From the IMG/VR virus record IMGVR_UViG_3300027782_000125, positions 1 through 49,971 of that record: a stretch of 49,971 bases of DNA; one strand, 5' to 3'. Both the position numbers and the translations under genes were made by a program. Source of the DNA: a virus. The notes under the pieces were generated by a model that ran no database searches, had not been told where the DNA came from, and saw nothing but the letters and a program-made list of their open reading frames with translations. Positions 7,612 to 16,516 of the stretch are shown here, piece after piece; position 1 is the stretch's first letter, and every line of letters begins with the position of its first letter.

Positions 7612-7635
7612 TGTGCCAGTTTAAAAATTGACACA
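7612..7635. promoter_or_regulatory. 24-bp dyad, copy 1
   Basis: TGTGCCA-N10-TGACACA, extended to an 11-bp near-palindrome (TTGTGCCAGTT / AATTGACACAA). It lies just after the stop of the 7459 gene. Another ten or so copies with the same length occur to 16.5 kb. At the usual distance (31 bp) lies TATATC (7666-7671), a possible -10. Confidence 0.65.
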
Positions 7636-7641
7636 AAGTTA

Positions 7642-7649
7642 TATAAATA
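7642..7649 (+). promoter_or_regulatory. Late-type promoter TATAAATA
   Basis: Exact match to the T4-type late consensus TATAAATA. No structural gene follows. The next features are an ORF-free stretch and a strong terminator, so any product would be a short RNA. Confidence 0.5.
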
Positions 7650-7664
7650 ATAGCACTTAGATCA

Positions 7665-7852
7665 TTATATCATAGAGCAGCTCTTGAATTCTCCTACGGG
7701 ACCAAGAATCAATCTGACAGATATAAGAACTGAGTGTTAGAGTTTAATAGGCTAACAGGGTTTAACTATAGGTTTCCCGATGTGCCGAATGCGGTCGGAA
7801 TAGAATATCACTAACTCGTGTTTTTGAAGTGTCAAAAATATGAGGGTTTTTT
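7665..7852 (+). ncRNA. Candidate non-coding RNA between a promoter and an intrinsic terminator
   Basis: About 170 bp lie between promoter-like sequences (late TATAAATA 7642-7649; dyad-linked TATATC 7666-7671) and a strong terminator at 7815-7852. The longest ATG-started reading frame I find in between is about seven codons. Local pairing is visible: AGAGC/GCTCT (around 7675-7685), TGTTAG/CTAACA (around 7733-7760), and TTC-CGA/TCG-GAA (around 7776-7802). No known RNA family is recognised and it does not fit a tRNA. The exact 5' end is uncertain. Confidence 0.4.
7815..7852 (+). terminator. Strong intrinsic terminator (13-bp stem, T6 tract)
   Basis: CTCGTGTTTTTGA (7815-7827), loop AGTG, then TCAAAAATATGAG (7832-7844) pair over all 13 positions with two G-U wobbles. 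GG and six T follow (7847-7852). Confidence 0.8.
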
Positions 7853-7870
7853 GGTGTCTGGATATAATGA

Positions 7871-7930
7871 TGTGCCAATTGCAGTAGTGGCACAGTGTTG
7901 CCTTGAAGTACCCCAAATCTGGTTTATGTT
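7871..7930 (+). promoter_or_regulatory. Class I promoter: 24-bp dyad, -35, -10 (for gene at 7955)
   Basis: Dyad TGTGCCA-N10-TGGCACA (7871-7894), -35 region CTTGAA/TTGAAG (7902-7908), -10 TATGTT (7925-7930), 31 bp after the dyad end. The start codon is 30 bp after the -10 start. Unlike most copies it does not overlap an upstream stop codon. Confidence 0.6.
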
Positions 7931-7954
7931 GGTTTCGTTCAACACAAACACCCC

Positions 7955-8164
7955 ATGGTTTTCCTCACTCTTCCTCACTACGGTTGTGTATTCACTCTTT
8001 GCCCTCCGCAAGAAGATGGGAATGAATTGTACCATGCTCCCATTTATGCTGATGGTAGTGTAAATCTAGAAGAGTTTGCTCCTGTAGATTTAGACTCTGC
8101 AGATATTGATGAGATGGAGTTAATTGACATTCGTAATCGCCTTGTGCAAATGTGCCAGGTGTGA
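7955..8164 (+). CDS. Hypothetical small protein (69 aa)
   Basis: Start ATG 7955 fits the class I promoter spacing. The protein ends with an acidic helix (SADIDEMELIDIRNRLVQM). The segment YHAPIYADGS aligns with MYAPLLPDGS of the next gene, so the two may be diverged relatives. The TGA stop lies within the central N10 of the next dyad. Function unknown. Confidence 0.65.
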   Translation: MVFLTLPHYGCVFTLCPPQEDGNELYHAPIYADGSVNLEEFAPVDLDSADIDEMELIDIRNRLVQMCQV

Positions 8165-8210
8165 AAGTGGCACACACCCCCTTGCGCTTTGATCCGTGAG
8201 GGGTTAAATT
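8151..8210 (+). promoter_or_regulatory. Class I promoter (for gene at 8233)
   Basis: Dyad TGTGCCA-N10-TGGCACA (8151-8174) spans the stop codon of the previous gene. -35 TTGCGC (8182-8187), 17-bp spacer, -10 TAAATT (8205-8210), 31 bp after the dyad end. The leader reads ACATTTGTTCCTGAGAGA before the ATG. Confidence 0.7.
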
Positions 8211-8232
8211 ACATTTGTTCCTGAGAGATCCA

Positions 8233-8445
8233 ATGGTTTTCGTTAAATCCACCAAGAACAACTGCACCTATAAACTGGATGCAAACAATCAGCGGGTTTT
8301 GATGTATGCTCCCCTGCTGCCCGATGGTTCATACGAAACCGCAGGATCTGCCTACGATTGGGTAGAATGGGATCGTCTGGATGGTGATATCCTAGAGGAG
8401 GCAGATCGAATTCACAAACTGCTGCTGGAGGATGTGGCAGTTTGA
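8233..8445 (+). CDS. Hypothetical small protein (70 aa)
   Basis: ATG 8233 is preferred over ATG 8215, which lies in the promoter leader (TTTGTTCCTGAG) shared with other genes. The N-terminal part is beta-like (MVFVKSTKNNCTYKLD ... VLMYAPLLPDGS). The C-terminus is an acidic helix (LEEADRIHKLLLEDVAV). Possibly related to the 7955 product. Function unknown. Confidence 0.68.
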   Translation: MVFVKSTKNNCTYKLDANNQRVLMYAPLLPDGSYETAGSAYDWVEWDRLDGDILEEADRIHKLLLEDVAV

Positions 8446-8492
8446 GAACTGACACAAGGGGGGTTGCGATCCTGCTGCTGCCCTGTTACATT
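8433..8492 (+). promoter_or_regulatory. Class I promoter (for gene at 8516)
   Basis: Dyad TGTGGCA-N10-TGACACA (8433-8456), nearly perfect over 10-bp arms, spans the upstream TGA. -35 TTGCGA (8464-8469), 17 bp, -10 TACATT (8487-8492), 31 bp after the dyad end. Confidence 0.72.
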
Positions 8493-8515
8493 ACCTTTGT
8501 TCCTGAGGGATTCCA

Positions 8516-8638
8516 ATGACCCCCAACTGGCAACACAACTCTGGTAAGCATAAGCGAACCAAGGGAATGTGTAAGGGGAAAATCAAATCCCGTAAGCAAG
8601 CACTCAAAGCACTCAAACTCAAACTCCAACCAAACTGA
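8516..8638 (+). CDS. Very basic 40-aa protein
   Basis: Reads MTPNWQHNSGKHKRTKGMC and continues with Lys/Leu repeats (KQALKALKLKLQPN) to TGA 8636-8638. About a third of the residues are Lys, Arg or His, so it may bind nucleic acid or ribosomes. CTGAGGGATTCC upstream offers a weak Shine-Dalgarno. The next gene begins 5 bp after its stop, so the pair shares the promoter. Confidence 0.55.
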   Translation: MTPNWQHNSGKHKRTKGMCKGKIKSRKQALKALKLKLQPN

Positions 8639-8643
8639 TCACC

Positions 8644-8856
8644 ATGAAGATTATCTACACCCGACAGAATGCCGATGGCAGTTATGATCAGTGTGGAATG
8701 AATAATCAGCGTTTGACTAGTCACTACAAGACAACTTCAGGGTTTCTTCGTTATGGTATCCCGAGCAACTTCTATGGTAACACTTTGAAGTTGGAAGTGT
8801 GGTATGGTGATAACATCTACCGCAACCCTGATAAAGTGATGTATGTGACAGTCTGA
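8644..8856 (+). CDS. Hypothetical small protein (70 aa)
   Basis: Second gene of a two-gene unit with the basic 40-aa protein. It reads MKIIYTRQNADGSYDQCGMN and ends NPDKVMYVTV. A beta-rich pattern with alternating hydrophobic residues and Tyr/Gly (FLRYGIPSNFYGNTLKLEVWYGD) suggests a small beta barrel or sandwich. Its stop lies in the middle of the next dyad. Family not recognised. Confidence 0.68.
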   Translation: MKIIYTRQNADGSYDQCGMNNQRLTSHYKTTSGFLRYGIPSNFYGNTLKLEVWYGDNIYRNPDKVMYVTV

Positions 8857-8903
8857 CTAGTGGCACAAGGGGGGTTGCAATGCCCCCCAATCCGTTCTAC
8901 ATT
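8844..8903 (+). promoter_or_regulatory. Class I promoter with hairpin around the -35 (for gene at 8928)
   Basis: Dyad TGTGACA-N10-TGGCACA (8844-8867) spans the upstream stop. GGGGGG (8869-8874) and CCCCCC (8883-8888) form a hairpin whose loop contains the -35 TTGCAA (8875-8880). -10 TACATT (8898-8903) follows 17 bp later, 31 bp after the dyad end. It combines the features of both promoter classes. Confidence 0.72.
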
Positions 8904-8927
8904 ACATTCGTACCTGAGAGACACCTC

Positions 8928-9398
8928 ATGCTGACTGGAAACGATCTGCTCACCCTGGTGAACGAGATGCAGGCACAAGAAACACCTGCTAAAATGTCTG
9001 AAATCGTTCGTGCCTGTGGGTATGAAATTGATGGCAAACTCAAGTATACTCAGTTCTACACTGAGTTGCTGGACGCAAAGGGACTTCTTGATAAGACACC
9101 CGAACCCGAAATCTCCGAGGAGTATCAAAAAACCTATGGTCGCCTTTGTGGTGATTATGGACAAGATGCCGTAGATACCTTCGTGGAAATCTACGGCGAA
9201 GAAAATCTTGACAACTTTGAAGATGCCTATCAGGGGCAATACGAATCGGAGCGTGATTTTGCCGAGCAATTCACAACTGATGTGTATGGTTTAGACATTC
9301 CTTCGTTTGTGATTGTTGATTGGCAGGCAACCTGGGATCAGGGACTTCGTTATGACTACGAGTTCCAAGATGGTTTCGTGTTCTCCAACAACTGGTAG
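8928..9398 (+). CDS. Possible cyAbrB-like N-terminal domain fused to an ArdA-like anti-restriction domain (156 aa)
   Basis: ATG 8928 is chosen because the promoter and leader lie directly before it. An in-frame ATG at 8880 would start inside the promoter. Residues 1-50 (MLTGNDLLTLVNEMQ ... SEIVRACGYEIDGKLKY ... FYTELLDAKGL) match the pattern of the N-terminal part of cyanobacterial AbrB regulators (LTG..LL..V ... CGY ... F..ALL.AKG). Residues 75-156 (YGEENLDNFEDAYQGQY, ESERDFAEQF, WQATWDQGLRYDYEF ... GFVFSNNW) match the C-terminal part of ArdA-type anti-restriction proteins, DNA mimics that inhibit type I restriction enzymes. Inferred role: protection of infecting phage DNA, perhaps tethered to a host regulator. 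The family assignments are from memory of motifs. Confidence 0.72.
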   Translation: MLTGNDLLTLVNEMQAQETPAKMSEIVRACGYEIDGKLKYTQFYTELLDAKGLLDKTPEPEISEEYQKTYGRLCGDYGQDAVDTFVEIYGEENLDNFEDAYQGQYESERDFAEQFTTDVYGLDIPSFVIVDWQATWDQGLRYDYEFQDGFVFSNNW

Positions 9399-9406
9399 GA
9401 TTGTTA

Positions 9407-9521
9407 CGAGATCGTGCGAGATGCATACGAGATGCACATGTATCTTATGTGCATCTTGCACGAGATCATATGACTGAGTGTATCATATTACAACGAGATG
9501 CACATAAGATACATGTGCATC
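9407..9521. repeat. Second CGAGAT cluster with two hairpin palindromes
   Basis: After the ArdA-like gene come ACGAGATC (9407), CGAGATG (9418), ACGAGATG (9428), ACGAGATC (9460) and ACGAGATG (9494). Two perfect 25-bp palindromes are embedded: GATGCACAT-GTATCTT-ATGTGCATC (9431-9455) and GATGCACAT-AAGATAC-ATGTGCATC (9497-9521). Their loops are reverse complements of each other, so the two elements can also pair into one long stem. Positions are read by eye. Confidence 0.75.
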
Positions 9522-9628
9522 TTGACGACATCATACATAACACGAGGAATGGGTTTGCCTCATCTATATCTAAAGTTACCCAGGTTGAGCAAAGATAATT
9601 CATAGGTGTTTTCATTGATTGGATGTTA

Positions 9629-9660
9629 AAGGCGGGGGGTGGTTCCCCTGCCTTTTTTCT
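9629..9660 (+). terminator. Intrinsic terminator
   Basis: AAGGCGGGGGGTGG, TT, then CCCCTGCC can form a GC-rich stem. A TTTTTT tract follows. It would end transcription from the ArdA-like gene and the repeat region. Confidence 0.75.
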
Positions 9661-9739
9661 TATCTTATGTGCAAGAATATGTGCTTCACCCCACTCACCC
9701 CTCCCCACACCATCTAGGTGTGCTTTGATATAATCAACT

Positions 9740-9768
9740 CATACCCCTTCGGGGTATGCCTTCGGCAT
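9740..9768 (+). terminator. Two adjacent UUCG-tetraloop hairpins
   Basis: ATACCCC-TTCG-GGGTAT (9741-9757) and ATGCC-TTCG-GGCAT (9756-9768) are two hairpins sharing AT at their junction, both with the very stable UUCG loop. TCTCTTTA follows. They probably act as a transcript end or a stabilising 3' structure. Confidence 0.6.
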
Positions 9769-9922
9769 CTCTTTAAAGTATAATATTAAAGCTTTATATT
9801 AATATCATCAAACCTAACAAAGGTATTATACTCAAGATTACAAGATGTGTCAAGCCCCTGAACCATTAGAGGTGCTGATGAGTCTGATAAGAACCTCTGA
9901 TGTTACGGAGTGTGACAATCCC

Positions 9923-9950
9923 TTGACCTGGGTGCCCGAGGCGCTATGAT
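9923..9950 (+). promoter_or_regulatory. Sigma-70-type promoter (for gene at 9999)
   Basis: TTGACC (9923-9928), 16-bp spacer, TATGAT (9945-9950). The start codon lies 49 bp downstream, and no dyad or G/C hairpin is attached. Confidence 0.65.
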
Positions 9951-9998
9951 GTACTCGTGGTTGAGACCTCTCTACATTCCCTCTCGCCACCAAAGAAA

Positions 9999-10373
9999 AT
10001 GACTTTTGCTATTCCTGCTTTGAATGCTATTGAAACTGCTGTGGAGTTGACTGAAACTGCCATTGCATACGGCACCAAGATCTATGCAATTGGTTCTGAA
10101 ATCTTCAGCATTACTGCTATTCTCTGGGTGCTGAACTTTCTGGGCAATGCTATTCAAAAGACCTACAATGCCGGGTTTGTTGTTGGTAAGTTCTACCGCA
10201 CTTATCTTCACAAGCATCTCAAGGTTGCTGCGATTCGTATCATTGCTGCCACGATCTTTGTGAGTATTCTTGCATACGAGGGTGCCGTGGTAGTGTACAA
10301 CAACCGCCACAAGATCGTGGCAGCAATCAACAACTTCCGCAACTTCCTTGGTTCTCAGTTTGCCTATGCATGA
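9999..10373 (+). CDS. Small membrane protein with two predicted helices (124 aa)
   Basis: ATG 9999 follows AAAGAAA. An in-frame start at 9957 would lie at the expected transcription start and is less likely. Two hydrophobic segments (IFSITAILWVLNFLGNAI, about residues 33-50; IIAATIFVSILAYEGAVVV, about 80-98) flank a basic loop (KFYRTYLHKHLKV). This suggests an inner-membrane or thylakoid-membrane protein. It is followed by its own strong terminator. Family not recognised. Candidate roles such as superinfection exclusion are speculation. Confidence 0.68.
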   Translation: MTFAIPALNAIETAVELTETAIAYGTKIYAIGSEIFSITAILWVLNFLGNAIQKTYNAGFVVGKFYRTYLHKHLKVAAIRIIAATIFVSILAYEGAVVVYNNRHKIVAAINNFRNFLGSQFAYA

Positions 10374-10386
10374 GTTGAATAGATCG

Positions 10387-10415
10387 GGGGGAGGCAAAGA
10401 TGCTTCCCCCTTTAT
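10387..10415 (+). terminator. Intrinsic terminator after the membrane-protein gene
   Basis: GGGGGAGGCA (10387-10396), loop AAGA, TGCTTCCCCC (10401-10410): a 10-bp stem with one G-U pair, followed by TTTAT. Confidence 0.8.
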
Positions 10416-10449
10416 ATACATAAACTGAATACATTTTTCACTTAAACTC

Positions 10450-10647
10450 ATGATCTACGAAGTTGTTGTTCCTTCTGCACCCCAAGAAAATGTCACAATT
10501 GAAGATGACAGATATGCTGCACAGTTGTTGTGTGGTACATTAGCAGGAACATATGGATATGCCGAAGTCTTTGAAGATGGTATCAAGATTATAACCGATG
10601 CTCGATCTATTAATGTGCCAGTTGAGGAAGTGGCACAAGACCCCTAG
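10450..10647 (+). CDS. Small protein, paralogue of the 14833 product (65 aa)
   Basis: Reads YEVVVPSAPQENVTIEDDR ... GYAEVFEDGIKI. This aligns along its length with YDVICSAAPWENTTIDEDR ... GYAEIRQDGMII of the protein at 14833, so both come from one family carried twice in this block. A short alpha/beta fold is likely. Its last codons lie inside a 24-bp dyad and its TAG stop is part of the next -35 (TAGACA). Function unknown. Confidence 0.7.
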   Translation: MIYEVVVPSAPQENVTIEDDRYAAQLLCGTLAGTYGYAEVFEDGIKIITDARSINVPVEEVAQDP

Positions 10648-10673
10648 ACACCTGCCTCGTTTCGTTCTACATT
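10614..10673 (+). promoter_or_regulatory. Class I promoter (for gene at 10696)
   Basis: Dyad TGTGCCA-N10-TGGCACA (10614-10637) lies inside the end of the upstream gene. -35 TAGACA (10645-10650) contains that gene's stop codon. 17 bp later comes -10 TACATT (10668-10673), 31 bp after the dyad end. Leader ACATTTGTTCCTGAGACACC. Confidence 0.72.
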
Positions 10674-10695
10674 ACATTTGTTCCTGAGACACCTC

Positions 10696-10881
10696 ATGAC
10701 TTCTGCTGATCTCTGCACCACGATTCAGAAGAACCCTGAACTTCTGAAGACAATTTGTGATCACTATGTTTCTGTTGCAAACATCATGCTAGGTTTCTCC
10801 GAAAAATGTGGAGAACTCGTGCAGGGCGATTGCGAACTCTATCAAGAGCAGATTGATCGCCACAAACTCTATGATGTGTGA
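10696..10881 (+). CDS. Hypothetical small protein (61 aa)
   Basis: ATG 10696 is at the usual distance from the class I promoter. An in-frame ATG at 10678 falls in the leader. Mostly helical, with three cysteines (DLCTTIQ, TICDHYV, KCGELVQGDCELY). The stop lies in the left arm of the next dyad. Function unknown. Confidence 0.65.
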   Translation: MTSADLCTTIQKNPELLKTICDHYVSVANIMLGFSEKCGELVQGDCELYQEQIDRHKLYDV

Positions 10882-10935
10882 CACCTTCTGAACTGGCACA
10901 TCGGGGCGCCGAGCGCCCCTCAACCCTGCTACATT
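10877..10935 (+). promoter_or_regulatory. Class I promoter with GC hairpin (for the 10961 operon)
   Basis: Dyad TGTGACA-N10-TGGCACA (10877-10900), then the hairpin GGGGCG-CCGAG-CGCCCC (10903-10919) and an extended -10 TGC-TACATT (10927-10935), 30 bp after the dyad end. There is no -35 match, so the dyad-bound factor or the extended -10 must compensate. It heads the only multi-gene operon of the block. Confidence 0.65.
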
Positions 10936-10960
10936 ATCTTTGTTCCTGAGACACCCCACC

Positions 10961-11083
10961 ATGTACGACGACCTCTGGATTGAGATTCAAGATGCCCCTG
11001 GTGAGATCTTTGACATCGACATTGATGAAGAAGAAGTGGAGCAATCCTTTGAATCTAAACTCAACTCCAAATACGACTTCTGA
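10961..11083 (+). CDS. Acidic 40-aa protein
   Basis: Reads MYDDLWIEIQDAPGEIFDI and a highly acidic core (DIDEEEVEQ), ending TGA 11081-11083. First gene of a seven-gene coupled operon to 12173. The start YDD resembles the N-terminus of the acidic protein at 7288. Function unknown. Confidence 0.6.
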   Translation: MYDDLWIEIQDAPGEIFDIDIDEEEVEQSFESKLNSKYDF

Positions 11084-11087
11084 AACT

Positions 11088-11234
11088 ATGGAAGTTCTAG
11101 AACTCAACCAAAAGGACATTCGTACCCTGCTGACACTCATTGAGTTCCACGATGATTGGGACGAAGTGAGTGAAATTGTGGGCACAGATGTTGCTCTACT
11201 CCATGCTAAAGTTGCCGCACTTCGTACCTATTGA
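11088..11234 (+). CDS. Acidic helical 48-aa protein
   Basis: ATG 11088 lies 4 bp after the upstream stop. An earlier in-frame ATG at 10980 would read through the first operon gene in another frame. Sequence begins MEVLELNQKDIRTLLTLI and ends with ALLHAKVAALRTY: probably a helical hairpin. Function unknown. Confidence 0.62.
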   Translation: MEVLELNQKDIRTLLTLIEFHDDWDEVSEIVGTDVALLHAKVAALRTY

Positions 11235-11236
11235 TT

Positions 11237-11362
11237 ATGCCTGACACTCTCAATTTCACTGGCGACACTGTGACAGTTCTCGGACTGGTCGGTGTCATCT
11301 CCACTGGCATCATCGTGGTGCTATGCTTCACTCGTTACTTCAATTCTCCTCTGAGGAAATGA
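11237..11362 (+). CDS. Single-span membrane peptide (41 aa)
   Basis: Reads MPDTLNFTGDTV followed by a hydrophobic stretch (TVLGLVGVISTGIIVVLCF, about residues 13-31) and a short basic tail (TRYFNSPLRK). The likely topology is N-out, C-in. Its TGA overlaps the next ATG (ATGA, 11359-11362), which supports it being a real operon member. Confidence 0.65.
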   Translation: MPDTLNFTGDTVTVLGLVGVISTGIIVVLCFTRYFNSPLRK

Positions 11363-11508
11363 CTTACCTCACTTCGGATGATCTCAACAATCTGATTCGT
11401 TTGGTTGAAGAAAACAACCAATACAACGATGATGATGACAAAGAGTTCTGGGACGATGTTATGATTCGTCTCAATCAAGAATACCGTCACTGTTTGGATG
11501 ATTTCTAA
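11359..11508 (+). CDS. Asp-rich 49-aa protein
   Basis: Start at 11359 inside the ATGA overlap. Sequence MTYLTSDDLNNLIRLVEE ... YNDDDDKEFWDDVMIRL. It ends TAATG with the next gene. Helical and acidic. Function unknown. Confidence 0.62.
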   Translation: MTYLTSDDLNNLIRLVEENNQYNDDDDKEFWDDVMIRLNQEYRHCLDDF

Positions 11509-11756
11509 TGAACCGCACACTTCAACAACTTAAAGAGAGCGTAGATCGTTTGATTGAGCAACAAGGTGCCAACGCATCTTGTGCTGCGTTCATCTTCACT
11601 AAGGAGGATGTATTTGAGATGAACGATGATGGTGAAGAGGTGTATTGTAGTGAGGAAATCACTAACAAAGTCCTCAACGATTTGGATGAAACTGATTATG
11701 TTTTAGAAAAGGCATTTGACTGCATTGAAGATTACATCAAGGAGCACACAAAATGA
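11508..11756 (+). CDS. Acidic helical protein (82 aa)
   Basis: Start 11508 overlaps the upstream stop (TAATG) and the end overlaps the next start (ATGA, 11753-11756). Two long helices are likely (TLQQLKESVDRLIEQQG; LDETDYVLEKAFDCIEDYI), separated by a short strand region (AAFIFTKEDVFEM). Function unknown. Confidence 0.68.
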   Translation: MNRTLQQLKESVDRLIEQQGANASCAAFIFTKEDVFEMNDDGEEVYCSEEITNKVLNDLDETDYVLEKAFDCIEDYIKEHTK

Positions 11757-11956
11757 CTTCAATTTCATTTACATCTGGTGAGTTGTATGATATTATATCT
11801 GCTCTTCAACTTGTAGAAGAAGGAGTGTATGATGATGGAGATCATCAAGGTGCTGCTTATTATCAAAATATGATTCAACAATTTGAACTCATTTTTGATA
11901 AGTTGCAAGAACGTGTAGGAGAGGATAAAGTAGCACAACTTGTGCTTGCTGCCTGA
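11753..11956 (+). CDS. Acidic helical protein (67 aa)
   Basis: Coupled to the upstream gene by ATGA. Sequence SGELYDIISALQLVEEGVYDDGDHQGAAY and a second helix (IQQFELIFDKLQERV), probably a helix-turn-helix hairpin of the coiled type. Function unknown. Confidence 0.65.
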   Translation: MTSISFTSGELYDIISALQLVEEGVYDDGDHQGAAYYQNMIQQFELIFDKLQERVGEDKVAQLVLAA

Positions 11957-11981: not shown

Positions 11982-12173
11982 ATGACATTCGACCGCGATC
12001 AACTCATTGCTGATTATGCTCAGCAGATCCTAGATGGGATGGATTATAAAACAATGGAACGTTTTGTCTATGATAATTTGATTGAAAATCTGTCCACCTA
12101 TAGTGATCAAACTCTAATGGAACATATATCAGAATATAGTCCCGAACTGCTAGGCGATGTGCCAGTTGACTAG
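11982..12173 (+). CDS. Acidic helical protein (63 aa)
   Basis: ATG 11982 after AAACAAA. An in-frame ATG at 11940 lies inside the preceding gene. Helical (FDRDQLIADYAQQILDGM; MERFVYDNLIENL). Last gene of the operon. Its TAG stop lies in the centre of a 24-bp dyad. Function unknown. Confidence 0.65.
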   Translation: MTFDRDQLIADYAQQILDGMDYKTMERFVYDNLIENLSTYSDQTLMEHISEYSPELLGDVPVD

Positions 12174-12217
12174 GTGGCACAAGACCCCTAGGCACTGCCC
12201 CCAACCCGTGCCATAAT
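12158..12217 (+). promoter_or_regulatory. Class I promoter (for KTSC gene at 12288)
   Basis: Dyad TGTGCCA-N10-TGGCACA (12158-12181) spans the upstream stop. -35 TAGGCA (12189-12194), 17 bp, extended -10 TGC-CATAAT (12209-12217), 31 bp after the dyad end. The leader here is about 70 nt, far longer than the usual 20-25 nt. Confidence 0.7.
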
Positions 12218-12227
12218 ACATTCAACA

Positions 12228-12281
12228 AGCGGGGGTGAAGCATCCCGCTCAAAACACTTCACTCAAAACAACCCCCTTTTT
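12228..12281 (+). promoter_or_regulatory. Possible leader pseudoknot overlapping a terminator-like pairing
   Basis: AGCGGG (12228-12233) pairs with CCCGCT (12244-12249). GTGAAG in the loop (12235-12240) pairs with CTTCAC (12257-12262), which together make an H-type pseudoknot with an A-rich third loop. The same G run (12231-12235) can instead pair with CCCCC (12272-12276), directly followed by TTTTT. The two folds exclude each other. By-eye prediction only. Confidence 0.4.
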
Positions 12282-12287
12282 ATTATC

Positions 12288-12506
12288 ATGTTCCAATTCA
12301 CTTCTTCCGCCATCGAAAACATCTCCGATGTGCAAGATGGCAAGGTTACGATCACCTTCAACGGTGGGCGTGACTACACCTACGGTGTTGCCGATGTTGA
12401 GCAATTCGTTTCTCAACTCTCTGAGGTTATCACCCAGAGCGACTCTGTGGGGCGCTTCATCAACACCTCCATTCGCAGTGAGCAACTGACCCAAGTTGCC
12501 GCCTGA
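12288..12506 (+). CDS. KTSC domain protein (72 aa)
   Basis: Matches the KTSC pattern: FTSSAIENISDV (Ser pair at residues 5-6), KVTITFNGGRDYTYGV (strand, Gly-Gly, Y.Y.V), and SVGRFINTSIRS (S.G.F.N..I). KTSC is named after lysyl-tRNA synthetase and short C-terminal occurrences; small free-standing copies are common in phages and bacteria. The function of single-domain forms is not established. A longer divergent relative may lie at 15597. Confidence 0.75.
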   Translation: MFQFTSSAIENISDVQDGKVTITFNGGRDYTYGVADVEQFVSQLSEVITQSDSVGRFINTSIRSEQLTQVAA

Positions 12507-12553
12507 GCAACTGGCACACGGGTGCCTCACGGCACCCTCACCCGTGCCATACT
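12495..12553 (+). promoter_or_regulatory. Degenerate class I promoter with hairpin (for gene at 12580)
   Basis: Only the right arm TGGCACA (12512-12518) is well preserved. The hairpin GGGTGCC-TCAC-GGCACCC (12520-12537) follows, then TGC-CATACT (12545-12553), 30 bp after the dyad end. Leader CTTTGTTCCTGAGGGATTC as in the class I genes. Confidence 0.6.
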
Positions 12554-12579
12554 ACCTTTGTTCCTGAGGGATTCACCCC

Positions 12580-12732
12580 ATGACCGCTCTCTGCTTCACC
12601 GACAACCTCCAGATCGACGAACAGGAATCCTTCTGGGAAGACCTGGAGTGTGAGGAGCAATTCTTCGCCTGGGATGACGACCAGGCACTGGAGCAGTTCT
12701 CCCTAGAGTGCTGCTTCGGACCTGAGGAGTGA
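12580..12732 (+). CDS. Highly acidic, Phe/Trp-rich 50-aa protein
   Basis: Reads MTALCFTDNLQIDEQESFWE and ends SLECCFGPEE at TGA 12730-12732. About 30% Asp/Glu with many aromatics. Charge and size suit a DNA mimic or an inhibitor of a host protein, but this is inference. GAGGG upstream may act as Shine-Dalgarno. Confidence 0.6.
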   Translation: MTALCFTDNLQIDEQESFWEDLECEEQFFAWDDDQALEQFSLECCFGPEE

Positions 12733-12788
12733 CACTTGCGGGGGTGGCACACGCTGCCCCCACCTCACTCCTCCCGATCTGCTACACT
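12728..12788 (+). promoter_or_regulatory. Class I-like promoter (for gene at 12816)
   Basis: Dyad AGTGACA-N10-TGGCACA (12728-12751) spans the upstream stop. Extended -10 TGC-TACACT (12780-12788), 32 bp after the dyad end. The leader contains the short palindrome GAACAAGTTC at the expected transcript start, shared with the next gene. Confidence 0.58.
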
Positions 12789-12815
12789 GAACAAGTTCAA
12801 CCAACCAAACCGATC

Positions 12816-12992
12816 ATGACCCAGCAGCAACTCCTCCAGAACGCCCGCAACGTGATCATCGGCATGAGCGATGCCCAGCGCCAGTGCCTGAAGACCGCTG
12901 CCGTTGCCAAAGGGCGCACCGCCCAGCAGGTGAGCAAGGCAGGCACAATGCGCCTGGCGCTGTGGGTGAGCAAGGGGACCAGCGCCATCTGA
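12816..12992 (+). CDS. Basic helical 58-aa protein
   Basis: ATG 12816 after CCAAACCGATC. An earlier in-frame ATG at 12729 would read through the promoter. The sequence (QQQLLQNARNVIIGMSDAQRQCLKTAAVAKG ... QVSKAGTMRLALWVSKG) suggests a helical, possibly DNA-binding protein. Function unknown. Confidence 0.6.
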   Translation: MTQQQLLQNARNVIIGMSDAQRQCLKTAAVAKGRTAQQVSKAGTMRLALWVSKGTSAI

Positions 12993-12999
12993 TCCCCCT

Positions 13000-13034
13000 G
13001 GGGGGCGCCATCGCCCCCCTTCCCGTGCTACACT
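13000..13034 (+). promoter_or_regulatory. Hairpin plus extended -10 promoter (for gene at 13060)
   Basis: GGGGGGCG-CCAT-CGCCCCCC (13000-13019) has an 8-bp perfect stem but no T tract. TGC-TACACT (13026-13034) follows. ATG is 31 bp after the -10 start. Confidence 0.65.
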
Positions 13035-13059
13035 GAACAAGTTCAACACCCGAACCACA

Positions 13060-13323
13060 ATGGCAACCGCAACCCGCTTTCAGACCAACCTGCTGGACGA
13101 AACCTACAACGGTTGGACCAATTACAAGACCTGGAACGTTGCACTCTGGATTCAGAATGACGAATCTTTTCAAGATTACATCCAGGAGAATGACATCTGC
13201 TGCTACGAAGACCTCCTGGAGGCGATCTACGATTGCGGCAGCAAAGAGACCCCGGACGGTGTAAAGTGGAACGATCCTGAGATCAACCGGGTTGAACTCA
13301 ACAGCGACTTGTTTGATCTCTGA
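13060..13323 (+). CDS. Phage-type small protein with GWTNYKTWNVALWI motif (87 aa)
   Basis: The segment YNGWTNYKTWNVALWIQND (residues 17-35) is the signature of a family of uncharacterised small phage proteins (I recall it as DUF7249). The rest is acidic (FQDYIQENDICCYEDLLEAIYDCG). The function is not established in any member known to me. Monocistronic, with hairpins on both sides. Confidence 0.72.
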   Translation: MATATRFQTNLLDETYNGWTNYKTWNVALWIQNDESFQDYIQENDICCYEDLLEAIYDCGSKETPDGVKWNDPEINRVELNSDLFDL

Positions 13324-13330
13324 TCCCTAC

Positions 13331-13365
13331 GGGGGGCACAACCGCCCCCCTTCCCGTGCTACAAT
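13331..13365 (+). promoter_or_regulatory. Hairpin plus extended -10 promoter (for gene at 13389)
   Basis: GGGGGGC-ACAACC-GCCCCCC (13331-13350), then TGC-TACAAT (13357-13365). Leader TCTCTCAACCGCAACCCATCCCC, CA-rich without a Shine-Dalgarno. Confidence 0.68.
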
Positions 13366-13388
13366 TCTCTCAACCGCAACCCATCCCC

Positions 13389-13550
13389 ATGCGCTTCGAA
13401 GTTCGCTACCAGACCCCCTACAACCAGTGTGAGTGGCGCTCCCAGTGGTTCAAAGACCTGGAGGAGGCAGAGCGCATGGTAGAGTTCTACCGCTCCTGCG
13501 GATCGCCCTCCCACATCTGCCCCTCATCGCTGGCACAACTGGAGCGGTGA
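13389..13550 (+). CDS. Hypothetical small protein (53 aa)
   Basis: ATG 13389 lies 29 bp after the -10 start. Reads MRFEVRYQTPYNQCEWRSQ then a helix (DLEEAERMVEFYRSCG). The beta-beta-alpha order with an N-terminal strand and AERMVEFY helix resembles small single-domain proteins for signal or ligand binding, but no family is assigned. Confidence 0.6.
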   Translation: MRFEVRYQTPYNQCEWRSQWFKDLEEAERMVEFYRSCGSPSHICPSSLAQLER

Positions 13551-13585
13551 TGACAGGAACGGCAGCGCCTCAAAGACTGCCAACA

Positions 13586-13594
13586 AACTACAAT
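13586..13594 (+). promoter_or_regulatory. -10-only promoter (for gene at 13607)
   Basis: TACAAT at 13589-13594 as in the class II promoters, but without hairpin, dyad or extended TG. Only 18 bp separate the -10 start from the ATG, so the leader would be very short. Weak call. Confidence 0.4.
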
Positions 13595-13606
13595 CCCCCA
13601 ATTCTC

Positions 13607-13756
13607 ATGACCAAAGACCTTGCGATTTCTCTCCTCAAAGCTGGCAACAACGGCGACCAAATGCTCCAAATTCTTGACTCTATTGTTCTGGGCGATAGTG
13701 TTGACGAATCTGATGAGTTTGGCGCAGACGCTACACTTGATGCCATCGCCTTCTGA
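13607..13756 (+). CDS. Acidic 49-aa protein
   Basis: ATG 13607 is chosen because TACAAT lies just upstream; longer in-frame starts would overlap the preceding gene. Sequence MTKDLAISLLKAGNNGDQML ... and an acidic C-terminus (SVDESDEFGADATLDAIAF). This resembles the short acidic tail-helix proteins common in cyanophages. Function unknown. Confidence 0.58.
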   Translation: MTKDLAISLLKAGNNGDQMLQILDSIVLGDSVDESDEFGADATLDAIAF

Positions 13757-13762
13757 GCATAC

Positions 13763-13822
13763 TGTGCCAACCCGCTAGGTGGCACAGCGGAGGGCAATGC
13801 CCCTCCCCTTTGCCTCTATAGT
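13763..13822 (+). promoter_or_regulatory. Class I promoter (for gene at 13849)
   Basis: Dyad TGTGCCA-N10-TGGCACA (13763-13786) starts 6 bp after the upstream stop. The hairpin GAGGG...CCCCTC (about 13790-13805) follows. -10 TATAGT (13817-13822) is 31 bp after the dyad end. This is the last complete class I unit. Confidence 0.65.
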
Positions 13823-13848
13823 GATTTCAGTTCACCACCCGAACCACC

Positions 13849-14088
13849 ATGCGCCTCAAGCAAGTGACCATCACCAGCACCGAAGTGGAACTGGCAAACG
13901 GGACCTGCGTTCTGTTCTCCTACCAAACCCCCGTTGCCGCCCTGGTGCCTGGCAAAGGTTGGATCCGCACCGCGACGAAGTGGAGCGTGACCACCAGCAA
14001 GCACATCAACCGCTGGCTGGCAGAGAACTGCGGCGGCGACGTTGCCACCGTGCCCCAGTGGGAACTGGATCAACTGGTGGCGTTCTGA
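13849..14088 (+). CDS. Hypothetical small protein with YQTPVA...TTSKHINRWL motif (79 aa)
   Basis: The N-terminal strands (MRLKQVTITSTEVELANGT) lead to VLFSYQTPVAALVPGKG and SVTTSKHINRWLAEN. This pattern recurs in small uncharacterised phage proteins, but I cannot name the function. Ends with a helix (PQWELDQLVAF). The TGA is followed at once by the first class II hairpin. Confidence 0.68.
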   Translation: MRLKQVTITSTEVELANGTCVLFSYQTPVAALVPGKGWIRTATKWSVTTSKHINRWLAENCGGDVATVPQWELDQLVAF

Positions 14089-14095
14089 TCCCTAC

Positions 14096-14134
14096 GGGGG
14101 TGGGTTGACACCTGCCCCCTCTACCGACTACAAT
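14096..14134 (+). promoter_or_regulatory. Class II promoter: hairpin with the -35 as its exact loop (for gene at 14156)
   Basis: GGGGGTGGG (14096-14104) and CCTGCCCCC (14111-14119) form a 9-bp stem with two G-U pairs. The loop is exactly TTGACA (14105-14110), the consensus -35. After 18 bp comes TACAAT (14129-14134). The hairpin starts 7 bp after the upstream stop. Confidence 0.78.
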
Positions 14135-14155
14135 TCTCTCAACCGCAACGGACTG

Positions 14156-14341
14156 ATGACCGTGACCCTGACCCCCATCAGCAGCAAGGCGAAGAACCGC
14201 CTGGCAAACCAGATGGGAGGCAACCCCCTGGTGACCGTGGAGCAGCGTGATGGCAACGACCTGTTCTGCGTTTCCGCTGACGGCACCTGGTGCGCCTGGG
14301 TGAATTGCCTGACCGATCCGAACTGGGCAGTTCGCTTCTGA
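14156..14341 (+). CDS. Hypothetical small protein (61 aa)
   Basis: ATG 14156 is 27 bp after the -10 start. Sequence MTVTLTPISSKAKNRLANQM ... LFCVSADGTWCAWVNC. The strand-helix-strand pattern ends in a Trp/Cys-rich strand. It probably binds something through a small alpha/beta fold. Function unknown. Confidence 0.62.
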   Translation: MTVTLTPISSKAKNRLANQMGGNPLVTVEQRDGNDLFCVSADGTWCAWVNCLTDPNWAVRF

Positions 14342-14343
14342 TC

Positions 14344-14352
14344 TGCTACAAT
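14344..14352 (+). promoter_or_regulatory. Extended -10 promoter (for gene at 14378)
   Basis: TGC-TACAAT, beginning 3 bp after the upstream stop. Any -35 would lie inside the upstream gene (TGGGCA at 14324-14329). There is no hairpin. Confidence 0.55.
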
Positions 14353-14377
14353 ACCAAAGAACACCGCAACCGATCCG

Positions 14378-14557
14378 ATGACCACCACCTGGACCCCCCA
14401 AACCCTCACCAGCGTGACCCTGCCCGAAGGCACGTGGGGGACCATCCGCACTGCTCTGATCTGCCTTTCTGCTGATGCCCAGATCCAAGGTCACGACTCC
14501 GACGCTGCCCACTGGTTGGCAGCGTTCAACGCTCTGAAGGAAGCGATGGGGGACTGA
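14378..14557 (+). CDS. Hypothetical small protein (59 aa)
   Basis: Reads MTTTWTPQTLTSVTLPEGTW ... with a helix (IRTALICLSADAQIQG) and ends AAHWLAAFNALKEAMGD at TGA 14555-14557. Mostly helical. Family not recognised. Leader ACCAAAGAACACCGCAACCGATCCG is shared with neighbours. Confidence 0.6.
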   Translation: MTTTWTPQTLTSVTLPEGTWGTIRTALICLSADAQIQGHDSDAAHWLAAFNALKEAMGD

Positions 14558-14568
14558 CCCCCCATCCG

Positions 14569-14577
14569 TGCTACAAT
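14569..14577 (+). promoter_or_regulatory. Extended -10 promoter (for gene at 14605)
   Basis: TGC-TACAAT, 12 bp after the upstream stop. The gap has a C run but no clear hairpin or -35. Confidence 0.55.
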
Positions 14578-14604
14578 TCTCCCGAACCAACCGACACCGA
14601 TCCG

Positions 14605-14781
14605 ATGACCTCCAACCCCTACGTTGCCACCCTGATCGAAATGGGATACGACGAACAGGACTGCCGCAACGTTGCCGCCGCTGGTTTGGATGCCACCTAC
14701 CCCCGCACCATCCACGGGCGCACCTATGCCACCAAGGCAGAATACGATGAGGCACTCCACGACTTCCTCAACGGGATCTGA
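14605..14781 (+). CDS. Hypothetical small protein (58 aa)
   Basis: Reads MTSNPYVATLIEMGYDEQDC and ends YATKAEYDEALHDFLNGI at TGA 14779-14781. The middle (TYPRTIHGRTYATKAEYDEAL) has the look of small cyanobacterial and phage proteins with an 'xYxTxxEYxxALxDFLNG' end. Function unknown. Confidence 0.62.
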   Translation: MTSNPYVATLIEMGYDEQDCRNVAAAGLDATYPRTIHGRTYATKAEYDEALHDFLNGI

Positions 14782-14799
14782 GGGGTTCGCCCCTATCCG

Positions 14800-14808
14800 T
14801 GCTACAGT
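14800..14808 (+). promoter_or_regulatory. Extended -10 promoter (for gene at 14833)
   Basis: TGC-TACAGT, preceded by GGGG-TTCG-CCCC (14782-14793), a small hairpin with a UUCG loop. No -35. Confidence 0.55.
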
Positions 14809-14832
14809 ACCCCAGACAACCGCAACCGACTC

Positions 14833-15006
14833 ATGCAACGCTACGACGTGATCTGCTCCGCTGCTCCCTGGGAGAATACCACCATCGACGAAGACCGTGC
14901 CTGGGATCTGTGCCTGGATCTCTCAGAGGAGTTTGGGTACGCTGAGATCCGCCAGGATGGGATGATCATCGGATCCTACAAAAACGGATCTCCCCTCCTC
15001 TGGTGA
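14833..15006 (+). CDS. Small protein, paralogue of the 10450 product (57 aa)
   Basis: Aligns with the 10450 protein: YDVICSAAPWENTTIDEDR ... LSEEFGYAEIRQDGMII. The codons here are much richer in G/C than those of the 10450 gene, so the two copies have evolved in different base-composition settings or were acquired separately. Ends NGSPLLW at TGA 15004-15006. Function unknown. Confidence 0.68.
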   Translation: MQRYDVICSAAPWENTTIDEDRAWDLCLDLSEEFGYAEIRQDGMIIGSYKNGSPLLW

Positions 15007-15019
15007 GGGGCATCCCCCG

Positions 15020-15028
15020 TGCTACAAT
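15020..15028 (+). promoter_or_regulatory. Extended -10 promoter (for gene at 15054)
   Basis: TGC-TACAAT. GGGG-CAT-CCCC (15007-15017) lies between it and the upstream stop as a minimal hairpin. Confidence 0.58.
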
Positions 15029-15053
15029 TCACAAGCAAACCGCAACCGATCCG

Positions 15054-15287
15054 ATGGCACTCCTGAGCATGGCAACCGATCTCACCACCCGCCAGACGAT
15101 CTGGGTGGGCACCAACGTGGCAAAGGGGCGCCCTCAACTCAACTCCCACCGCCCAGACAATTATGGGCAGGCAATGGCGAAGGCAGGCATCGACGGGTAT
15201 GGTGCTGCTGAGTTGGCAGACCTGCACTTCGACGGCACTTCCCGCACCTGCCCAGTTTCTGGGTGGCGCTCTGCTCAATGGGGTTGA
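15054..15287 (+). CDS. Hypothetical small protein (77 aa)
   Basis: ATG 15054 is 31 bp after the -10 start. An earlier in-frame ATG (15003) overlaps the previous stop and the promoter. Sequence MATDLTTRQTIWVGTNVAKG ... FDGTSRTCPVSGWRSAQWG. The TGA stop is part of the next promoter's TTGACC. Function unknown. Confidence 0.6.
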   Translation: MALLSMATDLTTRQTIWVGTNVAKGRPQLNSHRPDNYGQAMAKAGIDGYGAAELADLHFDGTSRTCPVSGWRSAQWG

Positions 15288-15312
15288 CCCCCTGCCCCTG
15301 ATCGACTACAAT
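15280..15312 (+). promoter_or_regulatory. Class II promoter overlapping the upstream stop codon (for gene at 15338)
   Basis: GGGG (15280-15283) and CCCC (from 15288) flank TTGA. The -35 TTGACC (15284-15289) contains the TGA stop of the upstream gene (15285-15287). 17 bp later comes TACAAT (15307-15312). Coding end, hairpin and promoter are merged into 10 bp. Confidence 0.7.
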
Positions 15313-15337
15313 TCCAAAGACAACCGCACCGCACCCG

Positions 15338-15523
15338 ATGCCCACCCTGACCCCTGCCACCGACCTGAACGCTCTCTCCCTTGACGAACTGTTCTGCGAA
15401 CTGTTCTGGCTGGAGGAGCAGCCCCAGACCCGCCAGATCAACGACGCTCACCTGAAGTGCTGGAATGCCATCGCTGACCGTCAGGCACGGATCGCTGACT
15501 GGAACGACTTCCTGGCAGGTTGA
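15338..15523 (+). CDS. Acidic helical 61-aa protein
   Basis: Reads MPTLTPATDLNALSLDELFC and two helices (LFCELFWLEEQPQTRQIN; LKCWNAIADRQARIADWNDFLAG). Probably a helical hairpin. Function unknown. ATG is 31 bp after the -10 start. Confidence 0.6.
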   Translation: MPTLTPATDLNALSLDELFCELFWLEEQPQTRQINDAHLKCWNAIADRQARIADWNDFLAG

Positions 15524-15531
15524 CCCCCACC

Positions 15532-15572
15532 GGGGCAGGGGGTTGACTCCTGCCCCCTTCACCGACTACAAT
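15532..15572 (+). promoter_or_regulatory. Class II promoter with the -35 in the hairpin loop (for gene at 15597)
   Basis: GGGGCAGG (15532-15539) and CCTGCCCC (15549-15556) form a perfect 8-bp stem. The 9-base loop GGGTTGACT contains the -35 TTGACT (15543-15548). After 18 bp comes TACAAT (15567-15572). Confidence 0.78.
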
Positions 15573-15596
15573 TCCAAAGCAACCGACACCGATCCG

Positions 15597-15899
15597 ATGC
15601 CCGCCACCATCGCCACCGCCTTCACCCCCGACCAGATGCTGACCCTGGGGCACTCCGTGTTCAGCAGCGCCATGCGCTCCTGGGCACTGGTGGTGAACAA
15701 CGACAACGATGCCGAACTGCTGGTCCTGTTCAACAGCAGCGACACCGTGTACCGCTACGCCTTCCGCGATTGGAGCGCCGCCAGCGACTGGGATGCTATC
15801 CGCCAGGAGGACGACTACGAAGATGCAGAACCGATCTCCTGGGGGAGCTGCTTCCACCGCTTCCTGGCGGAAGGAGCGATCCTGCCCATCGCCGCCTGA
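15597..15899 (+). CDS. Possible divergent KTSC-like protein (100 aa)
   Basis: The order VFSSAMRSWALVV (Ser pair), ELLVLFNSSDTVYRYAF and SWGSCFHRFLAEG follows the KTSC plan SSAI ... F..G..Y.Y ... S.G..F......, with an acidic insertion (WDAIRQEDDYEDAE). If correct, it is the second KTSC-type protein of the block. A search is needed to confirm this. ATG is 30 bp after the -10 start. Confidence 0.55.
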   Translation: MPATIATAFTPDQMLTLGHSVFSSAMRSWALVVNNDNDAELLVLFNSSDTVYRYAFRDWSAASDWDAIRQEDDYEDAEPISWGSCFHRFLAEGAILPIAA

Positions 15900-15906
15900 C
15901 CCCTGC

Positions 15907-15944
15907 GGGGCACCTTGACGGGTGCCCCCTCCATCGACTACAAT
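15907..15944 (+). promoter_or_regulatory. Class II promoter: hairpin with the -35 as its exact loop (for gene at 15970)
   Basis: GGGGCACC (15907-15914) and GGTGCCCC (15921-15928) form a perfect 8-bp stem, and the loop is exactly TTGACG (15915-15920). After 18 bp comes TACAAT (15939-15944). The clearest example of the architecture. Confidence 0.82.
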
Positions 15945-15969
15945 TCCAAAGCAAACCGCAACGCACCCG

Positions 15970-16227
15970 ATGCTCACCTCCATCATCCGCACCGCCGTTC
16001 GCTCCGCTCTGATCAGCAAGGGACCGATGACCTGCTCCGATCTGGTGCGCTCCCTGGGTATGGACCCCCGCCGCCACAAAGGCACCATCCATGCCGTGAT
16101 GGTGGATATGGAGAACGACGGCATCATCGATGCCATCCGCCTGAGCAACGGCAAGCGTGACCAGTGGTTCATCTACCCCACCGCCATCCGCAAGCGGGAC
16201 CGTATGGTTGCCGCCCTGGTGGGTTGA
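15970..16227 (+). CDS. Winged-helix DNA-binding-like protein (85 aa)
   Basis: Residues 8-50 (AVRSALISKGPMTCSDLVRSLGMDPRRHKGTIHAVMVDMENDGII) follow the winged helix-turn-helix plan: helix 1, a TCSDLV helix, a turn (GMDPRRH), a recognition helix (GTIHAVMVDM) and then a strand with 'GII'. The C-terminus is basic (TAIRKRDRM). It is the only recognisable transcription-regulator fold between 12.5 and 16.5 kb and so a candidate controller of the array. The DNA target is unknown. Confidence 0.65.
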   Translation: MLTSIIRTAVRSALISKGPMTCSDLVRSLGMDPRRHKGTIHAVMVDMENDGIIDAIRLSNGKRDQWFIYPTAIRKRDRMVAALVG

Positions 16228-16235
16228 TCCAACGG

Positions 16236-16271
16236 GGGGGGGTTGACCTCCTCCCCATTACCGACTACAAT
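16236..16271 (+). promoter_or_regulatory. Class II promoter with the -35 in the hairpin loop (for gene at 16297)
   Basis: A run of nine G (16234-16242) pairs with CCTCCCC (16250-16256) around TTGACC (16243-16248). 17 bp later comes TACAAT (16266-16271). Confidence 0.72.
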
Positions 16272-16296
16272 TCCAAAGCAAACCGCAACCCAACCG

Positions 16297-16488
16297 ATGA
16301 CCACCACCACCATCAACGGCACCCAGTTCAGCATCACCCGCCTGCCCGTTGCCCACGGTGCCGCTGCCCTCCGCTGGGCAGATCGCATCAAGGGCGGCAG
16401 CACCCGCGTTCGCACCCACGGTGGAGCAGCAGGCAGCAGCGCCACCCGGATGAGCACCACCGCCAGCGCCCTGGGCGACGTGAAGTGA
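16297..16488 (+). CDS. Thr/Ala/Arg-rich 63-aa protein
   Basis: Last gene of the GC-rich array. Sequence MTTTTINGTQFSITRLPVAHG ... a basic, low-complexity C-terminal half (GGSTRVRTHGGAAGSSATRMS). The N-terminal strand could be structured and the tail may bind nucleic acid. Function unknown. ATG is 31 bp after the -10 start. Confidence 0.52.
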   Translation: MTTTTINGTQFSITRLPVAHGAAALRWADRIKGGSTRVRTHGGAAGSSATRMSTTASALGDVK

Positions 16489-16516
16489 CGGTTCGGGGGG
16501 TGGCACACCCACCCCC
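16484..16516 (+). terminator. Last 24-bp dyad (degenerate) and GC hairpin closing the array
   Basis: AGTGACG-N10-TGGCACA (16484-16507) has the standard dyad length and overlaps the stop. GGGGGTGG-CACAC-CCACCCCC (16496-16516) is an 8-bp perfect stem followed by TATTCGT, not a T tract. No gene or -10 follows at the usual place. GC content falls abruptly shortly after. Confidence 0.62.

Follow-up and report, generated by a model that had tools for sequence, protein, structure and literature searches.

A 24-bp palindrome with the consensus TGTG(C/A)CA(G/C)TT-N4-AA(C/G)TG(G/T)CACA lies at a nearly constant distance upstream of σ70-type promoters in phages of cyanobacteria, and on balance it is probably the DNA operator of a dimeric regulator, most likely one that activates early promoters. 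The operator reading is preferred because the geometry is constant, the arms of the dyad do not covary, core genes retain the site, and the dyads of phage Mic1 coincide with its early class. The same observations support the original prediction of a phage regulon under the control of an activator or a repressor, which was made from a single window (the whole 49,971-nt stretch of viral DNA analysed, IMG/VR record IMGVR_UViG_3300027782_000125).

Dyads in the window

The original prediction listed ten main dyads and two degenerate copies, and all were found where it had placed them, each 24 bp long. A weight matrix built solely from the sites of other viruses picked out 10 sites scoring at least 16 in the window, compared to a mean of 0.0 in 20 Markov-resampled sequences. 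Thirty bases separated the dyad end from the first −10 base at seven sites, all on the + strand: 7871–7894 (−10 TATGTT at 7925–7930, gene start 7955), 8151–8174 (TAAATT, 8205–8210, gene start 8233), 8433–8456 (TACATT, 8487–8492, gene start 8516), 8844–8867 (TACATT, 8898–8903, gene start 8928), 10614–10637 (TACATT, 10668–10673, gene start 10696), 12158–12181 (CATAAT, 12212–12217) and 13763–13786 (TATAGT, 13817–13822, gene start 13849). These are the same seven cases for which a distance of "31 bp" had been claimed, a figure equal to 30 intervening bases. The spacing was 29 bases at the + strand dyads 10877–10900 (TACATT, 10930–10935, gene start 10961) and 12495–12518 (degenerate, with a poor left half; CATACT, 12548–12553, gene start 12580), and 31 bases at 12728–12751 (+ strand, one mismatch; TACACT, 12783–12788, gene start 12816). 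At nearly all window sites the start codon followed 59–65 bp past the dyad end. A downstream promoter at the matching position was looked for and not seen at two dyads with no assigned strand, 7612–7635 (TGTGCCAGTTTAAAAATTGACACA), where an early-type promoter at the usual distance is absent, and the degenerate 16484–16507, which lies past the last small gene of the block.

At eight or nine window sites (at least seven had been predicted) the preceding open frame ends with its stop codon inside the dyad, including those at 8151, 8433, 8844, 10877 and 12158; the 10614 dyad lies at the 3′ end of the preceding gene. At the −35 position, 7 bp past the dyad, TTGCGC, TTGCGA and TTGCAA were present at 8151, 8433 and 8844, respectively, the last within a GGGGGG/CCCCCC hairpin, and TAGACA or TAGGCA at 10614 and 12158 (TAGACA at 10614); the other window dyads showed nothing resembling a −35 element. 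Spacer hairpins were also present at 10877 (GGGGCGC/GCGCCCC) and 12495 (GGGTGCC/GGCACCC). The same small-gene block contains five near-consensus TTGAC/TACAAT promoters (14105–16271, + strand) of neighbouring small genes, none of which carries a dyad.

Promoter geometry and conserved targets

Across hundreds of independent sites, −10 hexamers clustered 28–31 bp past the dyad end. Among 232 unique sites, taken from multi-copy viral-contig stretches out of 323 sites in total, the maximum was 77 at 29 bp, and sites chosen on dyad score alone gave the same peak. TTG[AC] occurred exactly 7 bp past the dyad end in 90 of these unique sites and in at most 14 at any other offset. With the transcription start assumed 7 bp past the −10, the dyad covers about −66 to −43 with its centre near −54, directly upstream of the −35 position, and its promoter-proximal half is the more conserved (10.3 versus 8.8 bits). 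Two results count against the activating operator. TTG is present at the −35 in about a quarter of the sites, so not all of them need help; and dyad score correlated weakly and positively with −35 quality over all sites (rho 0.20), whereas a compensating relation would be expected of an operator that merely takes the place of the −35.

The dyad was located upstream of cobS in 75 of 79 phage contigs and of the cobT-like gene in 72 of 73, and at these orthologous sites the −10 lay at 28–31 bp in 75/79 and 72/73 cases, respectively. Scores of at least 8 were reached upstream of cobS in 64/79 and of the cobT-like gene in 67/73, compared to only 5/158 and 4/146 in within-gene control stretches. Many of these sites have no −35. 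The site is retained at the core genes cobS, cobT-like and gp32 although the spacers of the contigs have wholly diverged. An assignment of the conserved targets as ribonucleotide reductase genes was ruled out, the annotation being cobS and a cobT-like "peptidase".

By its sequence, a genuine terminator hairpin is often present between the dyad and the −10. Spacers folded at −10.2 kcal/mol (cobS) and −12.1 kcal/mol (cobT-like), compared to −3.2 and −4.2 kcal/mol after shuffling, and contained a T-run at 58/72 cobS and 44/69 cobT-like sites; the signal was weaker when all sites were pooled.

Distribution in phages and hosts

As the original prediction had proposed to check by scanning other cyanomyoviruses, the palindrome was present in every T4-like member examined, including Syn9, and it was also found in the unrelated Microcystis siphophage Mic1. 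The Syn9 copies include dyads at 48558, 52996, 127492 and 148742. Sites were concentrated in variable small-gene regions. In HTVC008M, a T4-like relative with a non-cyanobacterial host, the palindrome occurred only at chance level, and reversed-pattern controls gave 0 matches in all phage records.

All 49 Mic1 dyads fell within the published early block, and a dyad 40–110 bp upstream was present for 13 of 23 early genes versus 0 of 75 others. Mic1 promoters formed two classes, one with the −10 at 29–30 bp and weak −35 elements (TAGACA, TGGACA) and another with the −10 at 39 bp and a mostly perfect TTGACA, placing the two spacings one helical turn apart. Dyads also formed arrays at 56–64-bp intervals. 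Transcripts of the Mic1 E1 genes are on or peak at 0.5 h and are lowest by 4 h (published Mic1 expression classes).

A host cyanobacterial regulon was rejected, as the site does not recur as a set in host genomes. Among 251 genomes of the host family Cyanobiaceae, 23 exact-core matches were found (~0.04 per Mb; 3 with the reversed-pattern control), which is chance level; the strict pattern gave 13 matches across 84,980 genomes, and a relaxed pattern in 41 genomes gave 17 versus 11 in the control. Two single cyanobacterial matches (L206 and L207) proved to be ordinary host DNA, and another (L209) was a mis-binned cyanophage contig. In one host genome, dyads adjoin a tRNA-Ser and an integrase.

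Comparison with known systems

The PeSL cassettes of T4-type phages, reportedly described by Arbiol et al. 2010 and Comeau et al. 2014, are said to have been proposed as recombination cassettes between variable regions. The dyad sites resemble them in a terminator stem-loop followed by a σ70-type early promoter, repeated among small genes in variable regions. The stem-loop would qualify as an intrinsic terminator at the cobS and cobT-like spacers, judged from the letters alone, and a σ70-type early promoter lies directly downstream (−10 at 28–31 bp; Mic1 early class). Unlike in PeSLs, a distinct conserved 24-bp palindrome, itself no hairpin, is placed at a fixed distance before the stem-loop. 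Cyanophage S-PM2 has few PeSLs (PMC4503421). A text search of the literature for the half-site together with cyanobacteria returned nothing relevant.

Doron et al. 2016 (ISME J) reportedly found a novel early-gene regulatory element in Syn9 and P-TIM40, said to be conserved and abundant. That element and the dyad share an association with early genes of T4-like cyanophages, with Syn9 common to both; the two may be identical, which makes the undescribed status of the dyad uncertain. If so, the Kyanoviridae part would already be known, and the additions would be the occurrence in the Mic1 lineage, the link to a terminator and the test for covariation.

The Ogr protein of P2 and Delta of P4 activate phage promoters with poor −35 boxes from a dyad near −55. 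The present dyad likewise lies near −55 before a weak −35, with the start assumed as above, whereas Ogr and Delta act on late genes through a different sequence. An Ogr_Delta zinc-finger homologue (PF04606) was searched for in 13 dyad-bearing phage records and nothing exceeded the cut-off (best E 0.001); four weak matches were seen, two of them interrupted by stops. The T4 MotA box of middle promoters is also a phage-specific element at a fixed distance from a σ70 −10, but, unlike the dyad, it is short and, near −30, takes the place of the −35 itself. Cyanomyoviruses are without motA and asiA (PMC2984593).

Proposed mechanism and alternatives

A symmetric (dimeric) sequence-specific protein would bind the palindrome at early promoters and most probably touch RNA polymerase at the α C-terminal domain or σ region 4, and this contact would activate σ70-type promoters with a good −10 and a poor or absent −35. 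In many copies an intrinsic terminator would stand in place of the −35 and end the upstream transcript, giving a putative three-part cassette of operator, terminator and promoter, in effect a PeSL-like terminator–promoter fused to an operator. The protein could be carried in by the virion, made from an early phage gene or come from the cyanobacterial host. Gene clusters present in at least seven of eight dyad-bearing cyanomyoviruses numbered 64, only ten of which had no match in HTVC008M; two of these ten, of unknown function, occurred in all eight, phrog_507 (PSSM2_052) and DUF7717/phrog_818 (PSSM2_072). Neither received a DNA-binding domain call, and comparison of Mic1 early genes with cyanomyovirus proteins gave no informative match, making both weak regulator candidates. 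That neither conservation across the eight cyanomyoviruses nor the PF04606 search identified the binding protein counts against the activating operator.

The original prediction had offered a terminator or processing hairpin as its alternative, and an RNA element of this kind (or an attenuator) at the preceding gene's 3′ end is now most improbable, even with many copies overlapping the upstream stop codon and some capable of weak folding. Over 798 sites the dyad arms showed no covariation, with observed pairing approximately as expected, and pair 8/17 anti-covaried (266 Watson-Crick pairs versus 360 expected), so that a conserved RNA hairpin for the dyad itself was rejected; the terminator hairpin is instead often immediately downstream. 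The dyad folds at a mean of only −2.2 to −2.4 kcal/mol, compared to −10 to −12 for the adjacent spacer, its length is fixed, flanking pairs do not extend the stem, no T-run follows it, its distance to the downstream promoter is constant, and an Rfam search gave no match. A recombination cassette that chiefly shuffles small genes, with regulation secondary, would account for the clustering in variable regions and for the PeSL-like terminator and promoter; we consider it very unlikely, as core genes keep the site despite fully diverged spacers and the conserved feature is the spacing to the −10 rather than the surrounding sequence.

The Mic1 E1 time course also fits a repressor shutting early genes off and to that extent counts against activation. 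A phage-made repressor that binds the dyads and turns early genes off once it has accumulated would moreover suit genes that have to fire at entry, when phage proteins are not yet made, and the Mic1 arrays resemble cooperative repression. We nevertheless regard this explanation as rather unlikely: the dyads lie upstream of the −35 and not across the core promoter, the −10 distance is kept within ~4 bp or one helical turn off, neither of which repression needs, and the −35 has been lost at many sites. It is possible, if doubtful, that at least two unrelated cyanophage lineages (T4-like cyanomyoviruses and Mic1-like siphophages) took up one and the same operator, read by a conserved protein of the cyanobacteria or of the virion, as their early switch, and that the hosts do not use it as a regulatory site. 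In that case the dyad arrays in the non-coding DNA of Mic1 would be stacked promoters or decoys.

Significance

An operator with known spacing makes it possible to test how gene expression is ordered in T4-like cyanophages, which do without MotA and AsiA; the dyad occurs in phages that are in culture along with their hosts (Syn9, S-PM2, P-SSM2 and Mic1). It also provides a sequence rule for recognising the early genes of uncultured cyanophages, most of whose small genes are otherwise without annotation. The 24-bp palindrome appears to be a docking site for a protein that sets the timing of the first viral genes to be expressed.

Dyad geometry

The complete 49,971-base IMG/VR record represents a T4-like cyanomyovirus related to the freshwater Synechococcus phage S-SRM01, and its dyads are located in a block of small genes at 7.6–16.5 kb. 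All ten predicted dyads and both degenerate copies were found, each 24 bp long, and a weight matrix trained without the window recovered 10 sites scoring at least 16, compared with none in resampled sequence. The predicted constancy of the dyad-to-−10 distance held, with the seven main cases corrected from 31 to 30 intervening bases and the others from 30–32 to 29–31. The dyads at 7612 and 16484 had no promoter at the usual 29–31-bp distance, and five TTGAC/TACAAT promoters further along the block had no dyad.

For 323 unique sites, of which 232 came from stretches holding three or more copies, −10-like hexamers were located 28, 29, 30 and 31 bp from the dyad in 17, 77, 37 and 10 cases, respectively, and TTG[AC] occurred 90 times at 7 bp, compared with at most 14 times at any other offset. 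Selecting sites in named cyanomyoviruses on the dyad alone left the −10 peak unchanged, with 48 hexamers lying 29 bp and 27 lying 30 bp from the dyad. The iterated model gave the consensus TGTG(C/A)CA(G/C)TT-N4-AA(C/G)TG(G/T)CACA, in which the half nearer the promoter is the better conserved. Assuming a transcription start 7 bp downstream of the −10, the dyad would occupy about −66 to −43.

Several small-gene promoters at 12996–16480 of the window carry near-consensus TTGAC boxes within GC-rich hairpins adjoining the upstream stop codon, so that terminator and −35 use the same bases. A leader downstream of the −10 (TACATTACATTTGTTCCTGAG) is almost repeated at 8205–8230, 8487–8512, 8898–8925, 10668–10693, 10930–10958 and 12548–12578, with similar leaders in the freshwater contigs L009, L094 and L107; it may be a common element of the 5′ untranslated region or stem from recent copying of a cassette. 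Some dyads (S-SRM01 88175; viral contigs L094:5995 and L112:4286) lie within CTCGACGAGA/TCTCGTCGAG repeats, which form a second class of small palindromes in these phages, and CGAGAT repeats resembling them occur at 7201–7260 and 9410–9540 of the window.

Distribution and target genes

Scanning viral contigs for TGTGCCA-N10-TGGCACA revealed several copies in many stretches, up to 14 per stretch among the matches listed. The dyad recurs in other cyanomyoviruses, where the original prediction had proposed to look; named carriers are P-SSM2, S-PM2, Syn9, S-SKS1, B23, S-SRM01, DSL-LC02, DSL-LC03 and S-SCSM1, and S-CBWM1 had 7 weak matches. A reversed-pattern control gave 0 matches in all of these phages. 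The dyad was not found in Ma-LMM01, two T7-like cyanophages, siphovirus PSS2, Nostoc phage A1 or Planktothrix phage PaV-LD. It was all but missing in HTVC008M, a T4-like relative with a Pelagibacter host.

Across different phages, orthologous genes follow the dyads: cobS, a cobT-like gene (annotated ‘peptidase’), a helicase, gp32 and several small genes. The dyad-spacer-TATAAT arrangement was present at 75 of 79 cobS and 72 of 73 cobT-like loci from viral contigs, yet their spacer sequences had diverged.

Host genomes do not use the dyad, since 251 Cyanobiaceae genomes yielded 23 exact-core matches, close to chance for a 12-base pattern; the relaxed pattern reached about 2 to 50 per 100 kb in dyad-carrying phages. 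One Cyanobiaceae genome contains a dyad between tRNA-Ser and a tyrosine-integrase-like gene (L419:7553–9523) and, 14 kb off, a second with −35 and −10 geometry (L420:2295), which may point to an integrated island or a phage satellite employing the phage element. Dyad-like palindromes TGTGCCACTAATCAAACTGACACA and TGTGCCAGAAAACAAACTGCCACA recur without promoter geometry in Cyanobiaceae genomes (L246, L247 and L248), two of which carry them at a distance of 1.27 kb, and may be an unrelated repeat or mobile element.

Early genes of Microcystis phage Mic1

Two contigs dense in dyad arrays (L068 and L062) are relatives of Mic1, whose 49 dyads all lie within 56,813–72,102. The published transcriptome assigns gp49–gp73, minus gp61 and gp67, to the early genes (PMC11237433). 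A dyad was located 40–110 bp upstream of 13/23 early genes and 0/75 others (Fisher 2e-10, which overstates the evidence because the early genes lie together in a single block and are not independent). The 13 promoters fell into two classes, one with the −10 at 29–30 bp and a TAGACA/TGGACA-like −35, the other with the −10 at 39 bp and TTGACA in 4/5. This one-helical-turn offset is expected from a protein on one face of the helix.

Mic1 also contains dyad arrays at 67.4–69.5 kb and 71.9–72.1 kb, with dyads at intervals of 56–64 bp, many of them followed by TTGACA after 7 bp. Between gp69 and gp70 the arrays take up about 2 kb of non-coding sequence, and they are possibly stacked promoters or decoy sites.

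RNA-hairpin alternative and predicted spacer terminator

The alternative that the dyad is a processing or terminator hairpin was rejected: among 798 unique sites the arms did not covary, Watson-Crick pairs in paired columns not exceeding the expectation under independence. At position 8/17 pairs were clearly fewer (266 versus 360 expected), the half-sites tending to differ (one G, one C), which leaves fewer pairable combinations; the reason is perhaps that cruciforms are selected against or that the complex is asymmetric. At core genes the dyad-to-−10 spacer folded at −10.2 and −12.1 kcal/mol, compared with −3.2 and −4.2 when shuffled, and usually ended in a T-run, together a predicted intrinsic terminator. 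Since folding over all sites was weaker (mean −6.3 versus −3.6), the terminator appeared frequent, not universal.

Discussion

The original prediction knew of no described element with this geometry. Doron et al. in 2016 reportedly described a ‘novel regulatory element’ of the early genes in Syn9 and P-TIM40, which may be the same motif. We know of no earlier description of the terminator link, of the dyad in the Mic1 lineage, of the two helical-turn classes or of the covariation test. The terminator-promoter part resembles the PeSLs (promoter-early stem-loops) of T4-type phages. The P2 Ogr/P4 Delta sites, likewise dyads centred near −55, are alike in predicted action, and Ogr was searched for in dyad-bearing phages and not found. 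Cyanomyoviruses also lack motA and asiA (PMC2984593). Expression at entry and the occurrence in unrelated cyanophages suggest that the factor is a protein of the host or of the virion, and the lack of sites in host genomes suggests that it is made by the phage. Of the genes universal in cyanomyoviruses, only two with unknown function have no match in dyad-free HTVC008M.

The predicted activator- or repressor-controlled regulon is borne out as far as an early-promoter operator, by the spacing and the Mic1 early block. A repressor of early genes would explain why Mic1 E1 genes are down by 4 h, and over all sites dyad and −35 strength showed no trade-off, which counts against activation. Because the −35 is often missing and the dyad lies upstream of the core promoter at a fixed distance, activation, which the original prediction saw as fitting the weak −35 boxes, is nevertheless favoured over repression. 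The best-supported reading of the dyad is a candidate operator, on which a dimeric factor, bound upstream of the core promoter, would probably activate early promoters whose −35 is often missing.
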